A program made the translations under genes and the position numbers. Under the pieces are notes generated by a model, which saw only the letters and a program-made list of their open reading frames with translations, did no database searches and had not been told where the DNA came from. DNA of 64,000 bases from Candidatus Manganitrophus noduliformans. Its GTDB lineage: Bacteria > Nitrospirota > Nitrospiria > SBBL01 > Manganitrophaceae. Shown piece by piece: positions 4,986 through 15,603 of this stretch; within the stretch, counting starts at the first letter, position 1; every line of letters begins with the position of its first letter. The DNA is taken from positions 186,001 to 250,000 of the forward strand of contig NZ_VTOW01000001.1 of NCBI RefSeq assembly GCF_012184425.1, given 5' to 3'.

Positions 4986-6332
4986 TCAGAGATTGTAGCC
5001 GCTTTCCCCATGCTCCGACATATCGAGTCCGGTGATCTCTTTCTCTTTCGTCACGCGCAGTCCCATCGTGGCGTCGAGAATTTTCAGGAGAATCATCGTC
5101 ATGACGAAAGCGAACACCCAGGTGGCGACCACGCTGATCGCCTGGATGAGGAGCTGTTTGGCATTGCCGTATAAAAGACCGTCCGCGCCGGCGGCGTTGA
5201 TCGCCTTGCTGGCGAAGATTCCGGTGGCCAAGGCGCCGAAGGTGCCGCCGAGACCATGCACCCCGAAAGCGTCGAGGGAGTCGTCGTATCCAAGCTTATT
5301 CTTCAGGATCACGGCGCCGAAGTAGCAGACAAAACCGCCGCCGATCCCGATCAGCAGGGCGGAGATCGGACCGACGAAGCCGGAGGCCGGGGTGATGGCG
5401 ACCAGGCCGGCCACCGCGCCGCTGACCGCCCCCAGGACGGTCGGCTTTCCCCGATGCGACCACTCCACGAACATCCAGGTCAGGGCCGCGGCGGCGGCGG
5501 CGGTATTCGTGACGACGAAGGCGGAGGTCGCCAACGCACCCGATGCCACCGCGCTCCCGGCGTTGAAGCCGAACCAGCCGAACCAGAGAATCCCGGCGCC
5601 GAGGACCGTCATCGAGAGATTGTGCGGCGGCATCGGCTCCTTCCCATAGCCGATCCGCTTTCCCATATAGAGCGCCGCCGCCAGCGCGGAAACGCCGGAG
5701 CTGATGTGAACCACCGTCCCCCCCGCAAAATCAAGGGCCCCCATGTTCCGCATCCATCCGCCGACCGCCCAGACCCAATGGGCCATCGGATTATAAACGA
5801 AGGTGGCCCAGAGCAGCGAGAAAACAAGGAAGGTCGAGAATTTCATCCGCTCGGCGACGGCCCCGGTGATCAGCGCCGGGGTGATGATGGCGAACATCGC
5901 TTGAAAGATCATGAAGGCCTGGTGGGGAATGGTCGCGGCGTAGTCGGGATTCGGCTCCAGTCCCACCCCGTTGAGCCCGAGCCAGGCGAGGCTTCCGATC
6001 AAGCCGCCGACATCGGGACCGAACGAGAGAGTATACCCCCAAAGGACCCATTGCACGCTGATCAGGCAAATCATGATAAAGCTCTGCATGATCGTGCCGA
6101 GGACGTTCTTGGTCCGGACCATCCCGCCGTAGAAAAGGGCGAGGCCGGGGGTCATCAACAGCACCAATGCCGAAGCGGCCAGCATCCAGGCGGTGTCGCC
6201 GGTATCGATGGCGGAGGGAGCGGGGGCTTCCTGGGCAAAGGCGGACGGCGGATGAAACCCGATGAACAGGGTTAAAAACAACAAAACCAGCAGCCAACTC
6301 AGATAAACCTGCATGCGTCGATTCGTTGCCAT
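4986..6332 (-). CDS. amtB: Ammonium transporter AmtB (set 1)
   Basis: A 448-residue Amt-family channel for ammonium/ammonia uptake in the inner membrane. A signal-like segment at residues 13-33 ends near AFAQE, followed by 11 predicted membrane spans. Family landmarks include DTAWMLAASALVLLMTPGLA, written here as the DTAW...TPGL opening, the FYGGMV turn, and the twin pore histidines expected around HWVW and FGVHGLGG. The GGGG AACA-spaced ATG at 6332 follows GGGGAGGAACA. It sits 25 bases after glnD and 45 before glnK. The tail KEITGLDMSEHGESGY is the usual cytoplasmic C-terminus that P-II contacts. Confidence 0.94.
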   Translation of the reverse strand: MATNRRMQVYLSWLLVLLFLTLFIGFHPPSAFAQEAPAPSAIDTGDTAWMLAASALVLLMTPGLALFYGGMVRTKNVLGTIMQSFIMICLISVQWVLWGYTLSFGPDVGGLIGSLAWLGLNGVGLEPNPDYAATIPHQAFMIFQAMFAIITPALITGAVAERMKFSTFLVFSLLWATFVYNPMAHWVWAVGGWMRNMGALDFAGGTVVHISSGVSALAAALYMGKRIGYGKEPMPPHNLSMTVLGAGILWFGWFGFNAGSAVASGALATSAFVVTNTAAAAAALTWMFVEWSHRGKPTVLGAVSGAVAGLVAITPASGFVGPISALLIGIGGGFVCYFGAVILKNKLGYDDSLDAFGVHGLGGTFGALATGIFASKAINAAGADGLLYGNAKQLLIQAISVVATWVFAFVMTMILLKILDATMGLRVTKEKEITGLDMSEHGESGYNL

Positions 6333-6357: not shown

Positions 6358-8961
6358 CTACTTTCCTTTGCCGGTCGAACCTTGCTGAATCTCGTTTGTG
6401 AGCCGCTCCTTCACCTTCCGGATCATTTCCGAATCGGTGATCTTCTTCCCCTCGGGACCTTGCACGTAGAAAACGTCGACGATCTGATCGAGCCGCGTCG
6501 CGATTTTGGCCGAGTGGACCGAGAGACCGAGATCGAAGATTGTTTTCGCAATCACATAAAGGAGTCCCCGCCGGTCGGGGGCAAAAATATCGATGATCGT
6601 GAAGTGATGGGAGCTGTCGTTGTCGAGCTCCACCCGCACGGCAACCGTCGGAGGGGGTTCCTTGTGAGACCCAAACCGTTGTCCCCGCGTGAAGAGGGCC
6701 TCAATCGTTTCCTGACCGATCAAAACGCTCCGGACCGCCTGCGAGATCGTTTCGATCCGATCGGGCGGCACCGGCCCGGTATAATCGGGATCGATCACCC
6801 GGAACGTATCGACGACCATGCCGTTCGATTGGGTGAAGACTTGCGCCCCCATGATCTGAAGCCCTTTGGCGGCCAGCACGCCGGTCATCTTCGAGAAGAG
6901 ACCGGGTGTGATCTGATCATAGGTGTAAAGGGTATATTCCGTCATCCCGGAATCGGGAAGGTAGCGCGCCGCGACATGAATCGGATCGATCAGCAAGTGG
7001 AAGAGGGCCGACAAGTCGGCGAGCACTTTCTCGAAGGGGGTGGTCAAAAGGTAGCGTGGAATCAATCCTTGGACGGTCTCTTCCAGCCAAACCTCCGGAT
7101 ATTTGCCTTTTGCCTCCTGGCGGAGGCGCGCGACGATCATCTCGACCTTCCGCTCCTCAGGATCGGCCTCTTCTCCCGTCAGGATCGAAAGCGCTTCCCC
7201 GTAGAGTTTGAGGAGAAGCTCTCCTTTCCAACTCGTCCAGGTGCCGGGGCCGACCGCGCGAATATCGGCGCAGGTTAAGACGAACAGTTTTTTGAGGGTT
7301 TCCGGCCGGGCGACCTCGCTGGCGAATTGAAGGAGGACCGGCTCGTTTGAAAAGTCCCGGTAGAGCGCCACCTCGGACAAAATCAGATGACGCCGGACGA
7401 GAAACACCAAAAGGGCGCGCTCCTCGTCGGCATATCCCAGCTGAACTCCGGCCGCTTCGGCGAGCATCGCTCCGACCGCGCTGTGGTCCTCATCGCGCCC
7501 CTTCCCCACGTCATGCAGAAGAAGCGCCAGGTGGAGGAGATCTTTTCTTTGGATTCCCGCGTAGATTTTTCCGATCGGCCCCCCCTCGGCGGCCAGGCGC
7601 TCCCCCTCTTCCACGGCGCGGAAGCTATGTTCGTCCACGGTGAAAAAATGGGACCGGCTCTCCTGGACCAGCCGTTGAACACGCGCGAACTCCGGGATGA
7701 CCCGCCAGAGAACATGGGTCCGGTGCATCACGCGCAGGGTATCGGCGATCCGTCCCGGCTTCGAGAGGATTTCGCGGAAGAGGACGGCCGCCTCCGGTGA
7801 AATCGGCCGGTCCCGCTCCTGATCGGCAACCTGGTGGAGGACTTCGAGGACCGGGCCGGGAATGCGGGCGCCGTGTTCTTTTACAAGGAGAAAAATTCGA
7901 AGGAGATTTTCATCGTTCCCGAAGAACTGATGAAGATTGGTCGCCTGCGGAACAATCTCTCCGGCGGAGAGTTGAAAGCCGGGGGCCGCCTGGCGGGTCT
8001 GCCACGCGCGTTGCCACCTCTGCCATCGGCTGACCGGAAAGGCGTCCCGGATAAACCGATCCGAAATCTCGATGACCCAACCGGTCAGGATATAATACTG
8101 GCGCATCAGCTCCCGCCGGTTCTCGAAATGAAAAAAGGGGGCGAGCTCTTCCTGCAGCTCCATCGTCAGATGGTCGGAGGCCTTTCCCGCTTTGAAGTGA
8201 AGCTGGTTCCGAATTTTCCAGAGAAAATCGAGGGCGGTGGTCAGGCTTGAATATTCCGCGTTGGAGAGAAGCCCCCACTGAAAAAGCTGCGCGAGAGAAT
8301 TGGTCCGATAGCGGGCCAGCGCCACCCAGCGGAGGTGATGAATATCGCGAAGCCCGCCGGGGCTCTGCTTGAGGTTCGGCTCCAGAAGATACGGGGTGGC
8401 GCCGAACTCCTTTCGCCCCGCCGCTCTTCCGTTGTCGAGCTGGACCAAAAAATCCTTTAGATTTTTTCCGACCACCTTGGAGAAGAAGGCTTCGTGAAAC
8501 TGCTGGAACAGGCCGCGATCGCCGGTGAGAAAGCGCGATTCAAGAAGGGAGGTGCCGATGAGGGCGTCTTGCTTGGCGGCGGCGATGCACTCCTCCACGC
8601 TGCGCACGCTGTGGCCGACCTTGTATCCGAGGTCCCAAAAAAAGGGGAGCAGCTCCGACGCGAGTCTTTCGGCCTGCCTCGCGCGTCCTTCGGGGAAGAG
8701 GAACATCAGGTCGATGTCCGAGGCCGGCGAAAGCTCCCGGCGGCCGTAGCCGCCGATGGCGACCATCGTTCCCCCCCATTCCTGGATCAGCGTCGGGTTG
8801 ATCGACTGAAATCCCCGCAGCAGGAGATGGTCGGCCAGATCCGAGAGGGCCTCGACGACGCGAAGGCCGGTCCCGCCCTGATCGTGAAAGGCACGGATCT
8901 CCTTCTGCCTGGCCCCAAAGAGGAGGCGAAGATCAGCAAGAATATTGGCCTGAGAGTGCAT
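6358..8961 (-). CDS. glnD: [Protein-PII] uridylyltransferase / uridylyl-removing enzyme GlnD
   Basis: An 867-residue bifunctional glutamine sensor that uridylylates P-II at Tyr51 when glutamine is low and removes UMP when it is high. The nucleotidyltransferase motif GGYGRRELSPASDIDLMF is near residues 70-87. The central HD domain carries LHDVGKGRDEDHS near residue 490. Two ACT domains occupy roughly the last 190 residues (the second opens with DRRGLLYVIAKT). Length and order are typical. GGAGCAGG precedes the ATG and an extended -10 lies just upstream. Being ahead of amtB and glnK, it is expressed with its own substrate. Confidence 0.94.
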   Translation of the reverse strand: MHSQANILADLRLLFGARQKEIRAFHDQGGTGLRVVEALSDLADHLLLRGFQSINPTLIQEWGGTMVAIGGYGRRELSPASDIDLMFLFPEGRARQAERLASELLPFFWDLGYKVGHSVRSVEECIAAAKQDALIGTSLLESRFLTGDRGLFQQFHEAFFSKVVGKNLKDFLVQLDNGRAAGRKEFGATPYLLEPNLKQSPGGLRDIHHLRWVALARYRTNSLAQLFQWGLLSNAEYSSLTTALDFLWKIRNQLHFKAGKASDHLTMELQEELAPFFHFENRRELMRQYYILTGWVIEISDRFIRDAFPVSRWQRWQRAWQTRQAAPGFQLSAGEIVPQATNLHQFFGNDENLLRIFLLVKEHGARIPGPVLEVLHQVADQERDRPISPEAAVLFREILSKPGRIADTLRVMHRTHVLWRVIPEFARVQRLVQESRSHFFTVDEHSFRAVEEGERLAAEGGPIGKIYAGIQRKDLLHLALLLHDVGKGRDEDHSAVGAMLAEAAGVQLGYADEERALLVFLVRRHLILSEVALYRDFSNEPVLLQFASEVARPETLKKLFVLTCADIRAVGPGTWTSWKGELLLKLYGEALSILTGEEADPEERKVEMIVARLRQEAKGKYPEVWLEETVQGLIPRYLLTTPFEKVLADLSALFHLLIDPIHVAARYLPDSGMTEYTLYTYDQITPGLFSKMTGVLAAKGLQIMGAQVFTQSNGMVVDTFRVIDPDYTGPVPPDRIETISQAVRSVLIGQETIEALFTRGQRFGSHKEPPPTVAVRVELDNDSSHHFTIIDIFAPDRRGLLYVIAKTIFDLGLSVHSAKIATRLDQIVDVFYVQGPEGKKITDSEMIRKVKERLTNEIQQGSTGKGK

Positions 8962-11058: not shown

Positions 11059-11409
<351 letters not shown>

Positions 11410-12945
11410 CTATCGCATTACCTTTTCGGTCTCGGACACCTTCGGTTTCGGTGAAGCGTAGCCGACATTCATTGCGCCGCTGCTGGAGATCATGCTGACG
11501 GCAAAATCGGGATACGCGGCATTGCCGTGCTCGCCGATATCCAACCCTTCCATCTCCTCCTGCTCGCTGACCCGGACGCCGAGGGTCGCCTTGATCGCCA
11601 CCCAGATGATATAAGAGACCACGAAGGTGAACGCCCCGACCGCGGCGACTCCGATCAACTGGCTGATCAGCAGCTTCGCCCCGCCGCCGAAGAGGAGGCC
11701 GTTGCCGGTGGTGTTCGGCAACATTGCATCTTGAGCGAAGAGGCCGACCGCGAGTGTTCCGAAAATTCCGCAGACCAGGTGGACCGAAAGGGCCCCCACC
11801 GGATCGTCGATCTGAAGCCGATCGAACATCATGACCGCCAGAACGACTAGGAAGCCGCAGATTGCGCCGATGATCACCGCGCTGCCGGGAGAGACGAAGG
11901 CGCAGGGGGCGGTGATCCCGACCAAGCCGCCGAGCATGCCGTTGATCGACATGCCGAGATCGGGTTTCCCAAGCATGGTCCAGGCGGTCGCCGTCGAGAC
12001 GAGAAGTCCCGCCGCCGCGGCCAGCGTGGTGGTGATGATGATCCGAGAAATATCGCCCGGCGCCGCCGCCATCGTGCTTCCGGGGTTGAAGCCATACCAG
12101 CCGAGCCAGAGGATCAGCGCGCCCAGGGTGCCGAGCGCCATGTTGTGGCCGGGGATCGCCTGCACCCGACCGTCCTTATATTTTCCGAGCCGGGCGCCGA
12201 GAACCAGCACTCCCGCCAGGGCCGCCCAGCCGCCGACCGAATGAACCACGGTCGACCCGGCGAAATCCCACATCCCCAGTCCTGCGATCCAACCGCCTCC
12301 CCAGATCCAGTGCCCGACGATCGGATAGATGAAAGCGACCAGAACGAAGGAGAAGACGATAAACGAGAGATACTTGATCCGCTCGGCCACCACCCCCGAG
12401 ACGATCGTGGCCGCCGTTCCGGCAAAGACAAGCTGGAAGAAGAACTTGGCGAGCAGGGGGACCGTCGCCCACGCGATGGCGCCGTAGACGCCGCTGTAGC
12501 CGTCGCCGGTCATCGGCGAGTTATCCTCTCCGCCGAGGAAGAAGAGACCGCTCGTCCCGACGAATCCGTTCCCGTCGCCGAACATCAACCCCCAGCCGAT
12601 GAACCAAAAGGCCAGCGTGGAGATGGCGAAGACGATGAAGTTCTTCGAGAGGATGTTGACGGTGTTCTTGCTCCTGCAGAAGCCCGATTCCACCATGGCG
12701 AATCCGGTGTTCATGAAGAAAACGAGCATCCCGGCAATCACCACCCAGAGGGTGTCGAGGGCGACCTTGGTTTCCGAGGGGCCTTCGACCGCAGGCGGGG
12801 CCGGTGGAGCGCTCTCTGTGCTCTCCATCGTCATCGCGGGGGCTTCTGCCGCCGGCGCCGCCGCCTCTTCCGCCCACACCGGGAGGGAGAGTGACATCAC
12901 CAACGCCGCCAGAATTCCGATCCAACCGATCTTTAAATCCTTCAT
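11410..12945 (-). CDS. amtB: Ammonium transporter AmtB (set 2)
   Basis: A 511-residue Amt-family channel, longer than the first copy. After an N-terminal signal peptide (ends near PVWAEEA) there is an Ala/Pro-rich periplasmic stretch to about residue 60, then 11 membrane spans. Landmarks are GFAMVESGFCRSKN, which is typical of the Amt type with a conserved FCR turn, the HWIWGGGWI pore segment, and the GIFGTLAVGLF helix. The C-terminus is extended past the usual GLDIGEHG element by about 30 residues. It lies between porin and glnK with gaps of 27 and 12 bases, so ammonium could pass the porin and then this channel. Confidence 0.94.
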   Translation of the reverse strand: MKDLKIGWIGILAALVMSLSLPVWAEEAAAPAAEAPAMTMESTESAPPAPPAVEGPSETKVALDTLWVVIAGMLVFFMNTGFAMVESGFCRSKNTVNILSKNFIVFAISTLAFWFIGWGLMFGDGNGFVGTSGLFFLGGEDNSPMTGDGYSGVYGAIAWATVPLLAKFFFQLVFAGTAATIVSGVVAERIKYLSFIVFSFVLVAFIYPIVGHWIWGGGWIAGLGMWDFAGSTVVHSVGGWAALAGVLVLGARLGKYKDGRVQAIPGHNMALGTLGALILWLGWYGFNPGSTMAAAPGDISRIIITTTLAAAAGLLVSTATAWTMLGKPDLGMSINGMLGGLVGITAPCAFVSPGSAVIIGAICGFLVVLAVMMFDRLQIDDPVGALSVHLVCGIFGTLAVGLFAQDAMLPNTTGNGLLFGGGAKLLISQLIGVAAVGAFTFVVSYIIWVAIKATLGVRVSEQEEMEGLDIGEHGNAAYPDFAVSMISSSGAMNVGYASPKPKVSETEKVMR

Positions 12946-12972: not shown

Positions 12973-14058
12973 TTAGAAACTATAGACCACGCCGAGGACG
13001 GCGCGGTTCTGTGTATCGGTGACCGCCCCGCCTTCGTCTTCGAAGATATCTTCATCGGCCATGTCGTAACGGTACTCGGCCCGAATCAGAAGATTGTTCG
13101 CCACCTTGACCTCTCCGGTGACGGTGACCTCTTGAACCGTATTGTCGGCCGTTCCGAACATGACGCCGTCATCATCGGTGGCATTCTCAACGCGAACGGC
13201 AACGGCATAAGGGTCCGCCGCCAGTCGGGCGTAGAGAGCAATCCCCGACCAGGTCATACTGTCTCCGCCGCCGATTGGATCTTGCGTGCCGTAATCGTAG
13301 TTGGCTGCAAAGGAAAGGTTATCTGTCGCATTAAACATGACGATCGCATCGTAGACATGCCGATCCTGAAAACCGCCTCCGGCCGATCGTTCAGGACCGA
13401 TCCAGTTCAGAATGACGGTCAGCGGTTGGATCGGAACGATTCCAACTTGGGCTCCGAATGTTTTACCGTTGTTATTCTCGACCACATTGTTCCAGCCGTT
13501 GAGGACATAGCCGTTCACCCAGATCATGTCGGAAATGGCATAGTTCGCCCGCAGCCCGGCATGATAGTAGGGGATCGCACAGCAGAAGAGGAGCCCCCGC
13601 GTGTAGTTCCAATTGTCCTTCGACTCGATCACTTCCAATCCCATATGGGTGACAAATTTACCCATATCGAGGGTCAGGCCGACCGGCGTAGCCCAGGTCA
13701 CATAGGCCTGCTGAATGTTTTTGTACGGTTCTTCAGAGGCCCCGCCCGGACAGGAGAAAGCACCGCAGTGGACGAAGTCGGTCGTGGTTCCAAAATTAAG
13801 ATCGATGCGAAAACCGACCGGCTCGGCCGTTCTCGCCAAGACGATTTCGGCCAAGCTGACGCTGAAGGCGTTATGATAGAAATCAAAGTTGCTGAGCCCA
13901 TTCGTATTGGAGTCGGGTCTATTGAAGTTGAAGCTGTAATACGTATCGACGAATCCGCTGATCTGAAACGGCGATTCTGCCGGTTCTTGCGCAAACAACC
14001 TCCCCGTCGATAAGATCAAGAACAGAACGACAAAACCCGCCCCCCATGTTTTTTTCAT
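12973..14058 (-). CDS. Outer-membrane beta-barrel porin of the ammonium operon
   Basis: A 361-residue protein with a signal peptide (cleavage near LFAQEPAE) and repeated amphipathic strands ending in a C-terminal phenylalanine (VVYSF), the marks of an outer-membrane barrel. Opening text FQISGFVDTYYSFNFNRP and the overall pattern match the BBP2/porin-type family. Four cysteines (two in CGAFSCPGG, two in LLFCCAIP) could form disulfides. It is the first gene of the operon with amtB and glnK and is transcribed from the sigma-54 promoter through two terminator-bearing leaders. A role in letting ammonium or organic nitrogen through the outer membrane is inference. Confidence 0.8.
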   Translation of the reverse strand: MKKTWGAGFVVLFLILSTGRLFAQEPAESPFQISGFVDTYYSFNFNRPDSNTNGLSNFDFYHNAFSVSLAEIVLARTAEPVGFRIDLNFGTTTDFVHCGAFSCPGGASEEPYKNIQQAYVTWATPVGLTLDMGKFVTHMGLEVIESKDNWNYTRGLLFCCAIPYYHAGLRANYAISDMIWVNGYVLNGWNNVVENNNGKTFGAQVGIVPIQPLTVILNWIGPERSAGGGFQDRHVYDAIVMFNATDNLSFAANYDYGTQDPIGGGDSMTWSGIALYARLAADPYAVAVRVENATDDDGVMFGTADNTVQEVTVTGEVKVANNLLIRAEYRYDMADEDIFEDEGGAVTDTQNRAVLGVVYSF

Positions 14059-14100: not shown

Positions 14101-14176
14101 AAAAAAAAGGCGCCGCAGGATAGATAAACATCCGGCGGCGCCCTTGCCTGCCTACATTGATTACGTCAGCGTAGTC
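14101..14176 (-). promoter_or_regulatory. ANTAR-type antitermination leader, proximal copy (with intrinsic terminator)
   Basis: Minus-strand RNA. First hairpin: arms GACTAC and GTAATC (one C-A mismatch) around loop GCTGAC. After a six-base linker, second hairpin: GGCAGGC and GCCGCC (the A bulged) around loop AAGGGC, which has A1 and G4. The 3' arm of this second hairpin is part of the 5' arm of an intrinsic terminator (GGCGCCGC paired with GCGGCGCC, 14142-14109) followed by eight T. The two structures exclude each other. Its first-hairpin loop has G at position 1, where the motif wants A, so this copy may bind less well. Confidence 0.65.
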
Positions 14177-14208
14177 GATCTCTAATTTTATCTGCTCTAC
14201 AACAACTC

Positions 14209-14285
14209 AAAAAAAGGCGCCGCAGGACGAAGGATCAATCCGGCGGCGCCTTTGCCAGCCTTTAAACGATTACATCGGTGTAGTC
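14209..14285 (-). promoter_or_regulatory. ANTAR-type antitermination leader, distal copy (with intrinsic terminator)
   Basis: Minus-strand RNA beginning near the predicted start of transcription. First hairpin: GACTAC and GTAATC around loop ACCGAT (A1, G4). A seven-base linker follows. Second hairpin: GGCTGGC and GCCGCC (T bulged) around loop AAAGGC (A1, G4), at 14242-14260. Its 3' arm overlaps the terminator stem GGCGCCGC/GCGGCGCC (14250-14216), which ends in seven T. Both loops satisfy the known ANTAR target rule of six-base loops with A at 1 and G at 4. Compared with the proximal copy, the first and last loop bases change together (A/T to G/C). Confidence 0.7.
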
Positions 14286-14304: not shown

Positions 14305-14321
14305 AGCAACTGGTATGCCAA
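14305..14321 (-). promoter_or_regulatory. Sigma-54 promoter of porin-amtB-glnK
   Basis: On the minus strand TTGGCATACCAGTTGCT has GG and GC exactly ten bases apart, matching the -24/-12 consensus TGGCAC-N5-TTGCA. Transcription would start near 14294, just ahead of the distal leader copy. Confidence 0.85.
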
Positions 14322-14414: not shown

Positions 14415-14430
14415 TGTCGCATTTACGACA
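14415..14430. promoter_or_regulatory. NifA-type upstream activator site
   Basis: TGTCGCATTTACGACA is an exact TGT-N10-ACA site with further symmetry (TGTCG/CGACA). It lies about 104 bases upstream of the -24 element, the usual distance for an enhancer-binding protein, and ten bases after the stop codon of the NifA-like gene. Confidence 0.7.
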
Positions 14431-14440
14431 AAACTGTCCA

Positions 14441-15430
14441 CTAAAATGGGTTTTCGGGAAAGAGCTTGTACTTCTTGATCTTATAAGCGACCTGCCGCGG
14501 GGTCATTCCAAGCAATCGGGCCGCTTTGGCCTGGACCCATCCCGACCGCTCCAGCGCTTTTTTAAGAGCCTCTTGCTCCATTCCTTGCATTTTTTCCGTG
14601 AAAGAACCCCGCTTGTCGGAGGCAATGGGCGGAGTGACCGTTTTAATATCGTTGAAATAAGTCTGTATCGCCGGGGGGATGGTCTTGAATGTCACCGATT
14701 CATCTTCCGCCAAAACCACCAGCCGCTCGATGCAATTCTCCAACTCGCGGACGTTTCCCGGCCAATCATAGTGGATGAGAAGCTGGATCACGTCATTGGA
14801 GAGGTGGACTTTTTTATTGTTTTCGTTATTGAACTTTTCAAGAAAGTGCTCGATCAGCAAGGAAATATCTTCCCGTCTCTCCCGGAGCGCCGGAAGATGA
14901 ATCGGCACGACATTCAGCCGGTAGTAGAGGTCCTGACGAAAGCTCCCCTCCAGGATCGCGTTCTCAAGCTGACGATGGGTAGCGGCGATCGTCCGGACGT
15001 CGACCGAGATGGTATCAACCCCGCCGACCCGCTCGAACTCCATTTCCTGCAGGACCCGCAGCAATTTCACCTGGACCGGAAGGGGAAGATCGCCGATTTC
15101 ATCCAGGAAGATCGTTCCCCCGTCGGCCAGCTCGAACCGGCCCTTTCTCATTTGGATCGCGCCGGTGAAGGCCCCCTTTTCGTGACCGAAAAGCTCGCTC
15201 TCCAGCAATGTCTCCGAAAGGGCGGCGCAATTGACTTTGATAAAGGGCTTGTGGGCGCGGGGGCTGTTTTCATGGATCAACTTCGCGATCAGCTCTTTCC
15301 CGGTCCCGCTCTCCCCGCGAAGGAGAACCGTGGCTTTGCTCTGGCTGACGCGAATCAACTCCCGATAGATATCTTTCATGACGGGGCTGCGGCCGATCAG
15401 CGCGCTCGAAACCCGAGACTCTATGGCCAT
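14441..15430 (-). CDS. NifA-like sigma-54 activator lacking a sensor domain
   Basis: A 329-residue enhancer-binding protein. The AAA+ domain covers residues about 10-240: Walker A GESGTGKE at 39-46, the sigma-54-contacting GAFTGA at 86-91, Walker [14 protein letters not shown], and the arginine finger region [11 protein letters not shown]. The Fis-type helix-turn-helix at the end ([17 protein letters not shown]) is close to that of NifA. The N-terminal GAF domain that normally senses signals in NifA is absent; the ATG at 15430 is preceded by GGGAGGAAG. It is adjacent to the sigma-54 operon with a TGT-N10-ACA site, its likely target. Activity must be set by expression or by a partner protein. 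Confidence 0.85.
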
Positions 15431-15496: not shown

Positions 15497-15567
15497 TCTA
15501 AAAACAAAACGTCCCACCCCAACGGATGTTGGAATGGGACGTCCTCGTCAGAACACATCTTTGTGTT
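15497..15567 (-). promoter_or_regulatory. Terminator-bearing leader of the NifA-like gene
   Basis: Starting almost at the predicted transcript 5' end: a hairpin AACAC/GTGTT with loop AAAGAT (A1, G4) at 15567-15552, a short region that can form a weak second hairpin (GAC with GTC, loop GAGGAC), then a strong terminator: ACGTCCCA paired with TGGGACGT plus an inner CCAAC/GTTGG stem (15542-15509), followed by TTTGTTTTT. The gene starts about 80 bases later. The first loop fits the ANTAR rule; the second does not at position 1. Confidence 0.55.
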
Positions 15568-15574
15568 GTGATGT

Positions 15575-15603
15575 ATCGTACCTCAATCAAACAAGTGTGT
15601 CAA
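15575..15603 (-). promoter_or_regulatory. Sigma-70 promoter of the NifA-like gene
   Basis: Perfect TTGACA (15603-15598), 17-base spacer, TACGAT (15580-15575) on the minus strand. The start of transcription would fall near 15568, at the first base of the leader hairpin. Confidence 0.65.

Follow-up and report, generated by a model that had tools for sequence, protein, structure and literature searches.

ANTAR-type RNA targets have been defined as two hairpins with six-base loops, each loop carrying A at position 1 (A1) and G at position 4 (G4), with the second hairpin overlapping an intrinsic terminator (PMC3369931). ANTAR control of P-II proteins and ammonium transporters is a known principle, already published for other bacteria, where these genes and those of nitrogenase have been reported as targets together with their regulons; some of the matching RNAs lack terminators, and as of 2012 ANTAR proteins bearing GAF or PAS domains had yet to be characterised (PMC3369931). 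The leader described here precedes a porin-amtB-glnK operon in a 64 kb stretch of Candidatus Manganitrophus DNA, the whole of which we refer to as the window. It shares with the eut/EutV, nasF/NasR and amiE/AmiR leaders (PMC3369931, PMC8934654) two hairpins with six-base loops, G4 in both, the overlap between hairpin 2 and the terminator, and nitrogen genes of a kind reported as targets elsewhere. In contrast to those leaders, it has two complete units in series, a sigma-54-like promoter and tolerance of G at loop position 1 (G1), and the Manganitrophus regulator has two GAF domains where EutV has a receiver domain and NasR a NIT domain. Nitrogen-fixation control by GnfK/GnfR in Geobacter reportedly combines ANTAR antitermination with a sigma-54 activator; Manganitrophus differs in having no nifH above cut-off, an ANTAR protein without a receiver domain, and an activator whose leader is itself an ANTAR-type target. 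The tandem leader, the sigma-54/feed-forward wiring, a GAF-GAF-ANTAR protein with predicted targets, the purine at loop position 1 and the lineage appear to be new. The initial annotation of this DNA knew of no description in this lineage, and our literature search, the scope of which excluded subscription papers and the 2012 supplementary tables (PMC3369931), likewise gave none.

Anatomy and conservation of the tandem leader

On the minus strand from 14285 to 14101, two units of about 80 bases are offset by 109 bases, and each consists of hairpin 1 (GACTAC-N6-GTAATC), hairpin 2 (GGCxGGC-N6-GCCGCC) and a G+C-rich terminator followed by seven or eight T (Table 1). G4 is present in all four loops and A1 in three, the exception being loop 1 of copy B, which has G1. 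Both copies satisfy two of the published requirements for an ANTAR target, namely hairpins of at least 3 bp with six-base loops and a variable linker, and a hairpin 2 that overlaps an intrinsic terminator (PMC3369931). The full-length units fold as terminators (-31.8 and -33.1 kcal/mol, z -3.7 and -4.3, with none of 200 shuffles equally stable), units truncated ahead of the terminator 3' arm adopt the two-hairpin fold in both copies, and in growing prefixes the two hairpins form first, the terminator appearing once its 3' arm exists. Coordinates, loops and folds bear out what the initial annotation had described, that is, two spaced copies on this strand, loops that fit fully in the distal copy A and only at hairpin 2 in the proximal copy B, and a 3' arm of hairpin 2 common to the terminator stem that makes the two structures mutually exclusive. 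In isolation, the hairpins of copies A and B have ordinary energies (z -1.2 and 0.0), and the case therefore rests on the loops, the overlap, conservation and co-occurrence. The lack of unusual stability in the isolated antiterminators and the G1 in copy B are points against reading the leader as an antiterminator.

Table 1 Features of the tandem leader, its surroundings and one distant predicted target (positions in the window unless a contig is given)
Feature	Position	Strand	Basis
Sigma-70-like promoter of activator gene, TTGACA-17-TACGAT	15575..15603	-	sequence pattern
Third dual hairpin, AACAC-AAAGAT-GTGTT and GAC-GAGGAC-GTC	15538..15567	-	top held-out-model match in window
Activator-leader intrinsic terminator, uses hairpin 2 arm	15500..15545	-	folding (-34.3 kcal/mol, z -5.6)
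NifA-like sigma-54 activator without sensor domain	14441..15430	-	domain and nifA model search
Putative upstream activator site, TGT-N10-ACA (NifA-type), TGTCGTAAATGCGACA	14415..14430	-	sequence pattern
Sigma-54-like promoter (-24/-12), TGGCATACCAGTTGC	14306..14320	-	pattern match; conserved in genus
Copy A hairpin 1, GACTAC-ACCGAT-GTAATC, loop ACCGAT	14268..14285	-	sequence, folding, genus conservation
Copy A hairpin 2, GGCTGGC-AAAGGC-GCCGCC, loop AAAGGC	14242..14260	-	sequence, folding, genus conservation
Copy A intrinsic terminator, overlaps copy A hairpin 2, then T7	14209..14253	-	folding
Copy B hairpin 1, GACTAC-GCTGAC-GTAATC, loop GCTGAC	14159..14176	-	sequence, folding, genus conservation
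Copy B hairpin 2, GGCAGGC-AAGGGC-GCCGCC, loop AAGGGC	14134..14152	-	sequence, folding, genus conservation
Copy B intrinsic terminator, overlaps copy B hairpin 2, then T8	14101..14145	-	folding
Porin, BBP2 family, first gene of controlled operon	12973..14058	-	domain search
amtB, ammonium transporter	11410..12945	-	domain search
glnK, P-II protein	11059..11397	-	domain search
Molybdopterin oxidoreductase (PF00174)-P-II (PF00543) fusion gene, fifth predicted target	G000 C1:439777-440874	-	L332, L234

Copy A and copy B are each present in every one of the six genomes of the genus. The sigma-54-like promoter (TGGCAN6TTGC) is kept in the genus genomes wherever upstream sequence was examined, with TGGCATCNGTCTTGCTT-like sites as its counterparts in family f10. 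Inverted repeats resembling the putative activator site occupy the same place in relatives, and the TGT-N10-ACA pattern also precedes the promoter of the nitrate-transporter operon in the genome itself. Downstream of the operon in the window are a second amtB and a glnD-like gene (4986-6332 and 6358-8961, both on the minus strand); no ANTAR-type leader was found ahead of this second amtB (6332-4986).

Scanning around amtB, activator and ANTAR genes in 40 relatives yielded leaders upstream of amtB in family f5 (GCTC-AAAGAA-GAGC and ACTC-AATGGG-GAGT) and of porin-amtB in family f10 (GGATAC-GAYGYC-GTATCC and CGGC-AAYGAA-GCC), and the element was also seen ahead of the f10 glnK and, in two genomes of the Nitrospira family, near amtB. 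When 18 leaders were aligned with MAFFT, unaided, the C-G closing pairs and G4 were invariant in both loops; position 1 is A or G across families, and G1 recurs. Across families, the hairpins are conserved and covary, as the initial annotation had required of its reading: 94.5% of the pair cells in the cross-family alignment are standard (65% in shuffles, at most 58% when slid), and 38 cells, versus 11.6, are changed on both sides. Most of the aligned leaders were chosen by a hairpin-seeking scanner, which inflates these pairing statistics, and we therefore treat them as supporting rather than independent evidence. A model built from copies A and B alone found nothing convincing beyond the genus. 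In the region itself, a covariance-model search, which had been proposed as a check, recovers both copies with a model from other families: model R3, whose eight source sequences all belong to families f6 and f10, was run unfiltered on the 64 kb window and ranked copy A second (18.3 bits, E 0.013) and copy B third (17.4 bits, E 0.022), the best match being the activator leader at 15567-15538 (-). L117, L222, L226 and similar matches lie mostly within coding frames and were judged to be chance.

The location of strong terminators between the activator gene and the porin gene is also what one would see if the units were two plain intrinsic terminators ending activator transcription, or a constitutive attenuator, with incidental hexaloops. 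We regard this as highly improbable, in that the conserved sigma-54-like promoter lies upstream of both terminators and thus places them within the leader of the porin operon, the loop G4 and the C-G closing pairs do not vary across families, and the presence of the leader tracks that of an ANTAR gene, as described below.

A single GAF-GAF-ANTAR protein and its distribution

A whole-genome profile search, which the initial annotation had called for in positing an ANTAR protein encoded elsewhere, found exactly one ANTAR domain, on contig C3 (80.4 bits against a PF03861 cut-off of 27.3; 76.5 bits in the domain search of the protein), at the C terminus of a protein with two GAF domains (C3:593149-594417). 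The protein qualifies as an ANTAR protein by its score above the curated PF03861 cut-off and by its conserved RNA-contact residues: among the EutV contacts R142, K143, K149, E160, M172, Y164 and K147 (PMC8934654), alignment to EutV (PDB 6wsh) shows the first five kept, Y164 replaced by F and K147 by R. In EutV, Tyr164 stacks with G4 and A1 has no specific contact (PMC8934654). Neither a receiver domain nor a NIT sensor domain was present in the domain search, and the protein is accordingly of neither the EutV/GnfR nor the NasR type. The likeness to NasR, EutV and GnfR drawn in the initial annotation thus survives for the geometry of the RNA target and not for the regulator, and its parallel with GnfR has to be narrowed: the genome search gave no nifH above cut-off, only distant relatives, so the parallel concerns control of ammonium and nitrogen sources, not nitrogen fixation. 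By eye, no ANTAR-type leader was found in the region upstream of the ANTAR gene.

Across the class Nitrospiria, 189 of 270 genomes carry an ANTAR gene, nearly always in one copy, and named matches include Candidatus Manganitrophus, Candidatus Troglogloeales, Nitrospira moscoviensis and Candidatus Nitrospira defluvii. Four genomes of the Nitrospira group (G029, G033, G035 and G037) have neither an ANTAR gene nor an amtB match; ANTAR-bearing relatives of the same family have amtB.

Model R2 was run on all 270 class genomes, of which the 17 used for training were left out, leaving 253. Strong matches (E <=0.001) were obtained in 31 held-out genomes, every one with an ANTAR gene, and in none of the 81 without it (Fisher 5e-6). 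This test treats related genomes as independent, and its p values are only a guide; less exposed to kinship is the contrast within genus g9, which is mostly ANTAR-less, where a match at E <=0.005 occurs in 9 of the 13 genomes with the gene and in 1 of the roughly 65 without it (the size of g9 is estimated). A strict hairpin scan gave a co-occurrence p of only 0.06 and missed family f10, in which hairpin 2 has 3 pairs.

An Rfam search of the leader returned no family at gathering score, and narK and ncS01, weak matches below that score, were rejected as its identity. With no factor shown to bind and nothing beyond these weak matches, the leader could in principle answer to another trans-acting factor (a small-molecule ligand, another RNA-binding protein or a small RNA). 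Such a factor seems to us barely credible, given the absence of any Rfam family at gathering score and a loop signature, gene adjacency and co-occurrence that all indicate an ANTAR protein.

The activator leader and further predicted targets

The adjacent NifA-like sigma-54 activator has an ANTAR-type leader of its own at 15567-15500 (-), the third in the window and one that the initial annotation did not list with the tandem. The antiterminator of this leader has a hairpin 2 of only 3 bp with a G1 loop and, in isolation, prefers another fold, which counts against the antitermination reading. The activator likely starts at ATG 15430, because a longer reading from GTG begins within the terminator. 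The protein resembles NifA/NtrC sigma-54 activators in its score against the nifA equivalog model (477 bits) and in the TGT-N10-ACA pattern upstream of the promoter, but differs in falling below the cut-off of 529 (528.85) and in having no sensor domain in the genus; with this score, and no nifH above cut-off in the genome, we rejected it as NifA proper. Genus genomes keep the activator leader, and similarly built leaders stand ahead of the activator in families f5, f2 and f7 and ahead of a glnK-activator operon in f10. In G008 and G020, both of which lack an ANTAR gene, inspection by eye found no leader upstream of the activator. The activator (14441-15430 and relatives L105-L110) is short and sensor-less in the genus and in f5 and has 540-630 aa in f10, a difference that would fit a loss or relocation of sensing.

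Elsewhere in the genome, the sigma-54 pattern occurs at 105 sites, against 55 for a reversed-pattern control. Only 4 of the 92 sigma-54-like sites examined lie within 170 bases of a terminator, and hexaloop hairpins are present at every one of these 4. They precede the porin-amtB-glnK operon, a CBS-protein gene that has a nitrate ABC transporter after it, an ATP-grasp cluster of the circularly permuted type (in which the hairpin 2 loop has 7 bases) and an operon of the polyamine-degradation type encoding a glutamine-synthetase-like enzyme together with an aldehyde dehydrogenase. The fifth predicted target, the PF00174-PF00543 fusion gene, is a conserved gene of the genus (relatives L220, L221, L230-L236); it is preceded by a sigma-54-like promoter and by an ANTAR-type leader whose T run is poorer. 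Since four more ANTAR-type leaders thus lie behind sigma-54-like promoters in this genome, the element is probably part of a nitrogen-source regulon. Class-wide, leaders of similar kind precede amtB, porin, glnK, activator and nadE genes, a list that is a lower bound because, over whole genomes, R2 gave scores to only 150 of the 1952 candidates and failed to pick up the activator leader.

In several Nitrospirales genomes, a leader with an overlapping T-rich terminator is located ahead of nadE (L210-L215, L217, L228), with the ANTAR gene about 100-250 bases upstream in several cases; the nadE call (glutamine-dependent NAD synthetase) comes from sequence reading without a domain search. A second tandem, with two terminators, was seen in another family ahead of a gene for a 396-aa outer-membrane-type protein (L219, G013:C74:15062-14907, -).

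Some of the f5 amtB and f10 porin leaders have no overlapping intrinsic terminator, and the mode of action is therefore not uniform. The f5 amtB leaders L144 and L146-L150 have dual hexaloops and no terminator, and in most of them the CAATGGGGAG part of hairpin 2 can pair, fully or almost fully, with CTCCCCGTTG near the start of the amtB coding sequence, a complementarity that suggests translational control in this family. An ANTAR target acting chiefly on translation or RNA stability, with secondary terminators, as proposed for terminator-less ANTAR RNAs, has to be considered for Manganitrophus as well, given the related amtB and porin leaders without terminators, the complementarity of some to early coding sequence, and the terminator-less matches near ribosome sites in other bacteria (PMC3369931). 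In the window, however, strong terminators that use the hairpin 2 arm are part of the activator leader as well as of both copies, and the ribosome site of the porin gene (about 14070) is overlapped by hairpin 2 of neither copy; we consider this mode very unlikely for the tandem leader.

Proposed circuit and its meaning for the Nitrospiria

The explanation that best fits the evidence as a whole, and one we hold with considerable confidence in the absence of binding or expression data, is that the leader is a tandem ANTAR-controlled transcription antiterminator. What the sequence itself shows is the RNA anatomy with its overlap, the one ANTAR gene, conservation, co-occurrence and the leader of the activator gene. 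Under this mechanism, a transcript from the sigma-54 promoter would halt by default at one of the two intrinsic terminators. The activated GAF-GAF-ANTAR protein, whose binding to the leader and antitermination are inferred, would engage both hexaloops of each copy as they emerge and hold hairpin 2, whose 3' arm and loop the terminator stem needs, allowing the polymerase to enter porin-amtB-glnK. Two terminators in series would multiply the default block, deepen the off state and make read-through depend on binding at each site; a stepped or cooperative effect of the tandem, and nitrogen stress as the signal, remain inferences, as they were in the initial annotation. That the signal is nitrogen state is inferred, and it is perhaps read by the GAF domains.

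The same protein would likewise overcome the terminator ahead of the neighbouring NifA-like activator, and we infer that one ANTAR protein probably opens all three leaders. The activator in turn would probably drive the sigma-54 promoter of the porin operon, as is inferred; a TGT-N10-ACA site lies at 14430-14415. By acting on both the activator and its target operon, the ANTAR protein would form, probably, a coherent feed-forward AND gate with the activator. On balance, and with only slight confidence, we favour a wider model in which a nitrogen-source regulon of the Nitrospiria is run through RNA by one GAF-GAF-ANTAR protein, which antiterminates the leader of the sensor-less NifA-like activator and acts again on the tandem or single leaders of sigma-54 operons, so that sensing in this feed-forward AND gate lies on the antiterminator and not on the activator, some families having terminator-less leaders that probably act on translation.

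Among the Nitrospiria are nitrite oxidisers, comammox bacteria and the manganese oxidiser Candidatus Manganitrophus; to our knowledge, little is known of how they regulate the use of ammonium and other nitrogen sources. They now have one named regulator with predicted RNA targets, Candidatus Nitrospira defluvii included, and GAF-type ANTAR proteins gain a set of predicted targets. In the comparison of leaders, G4 and the C-G closing pair are more strictly kept than A1. The locus also offers a natural tandem terminator and a predicted feed-forward circuit that can be tested in vitro.
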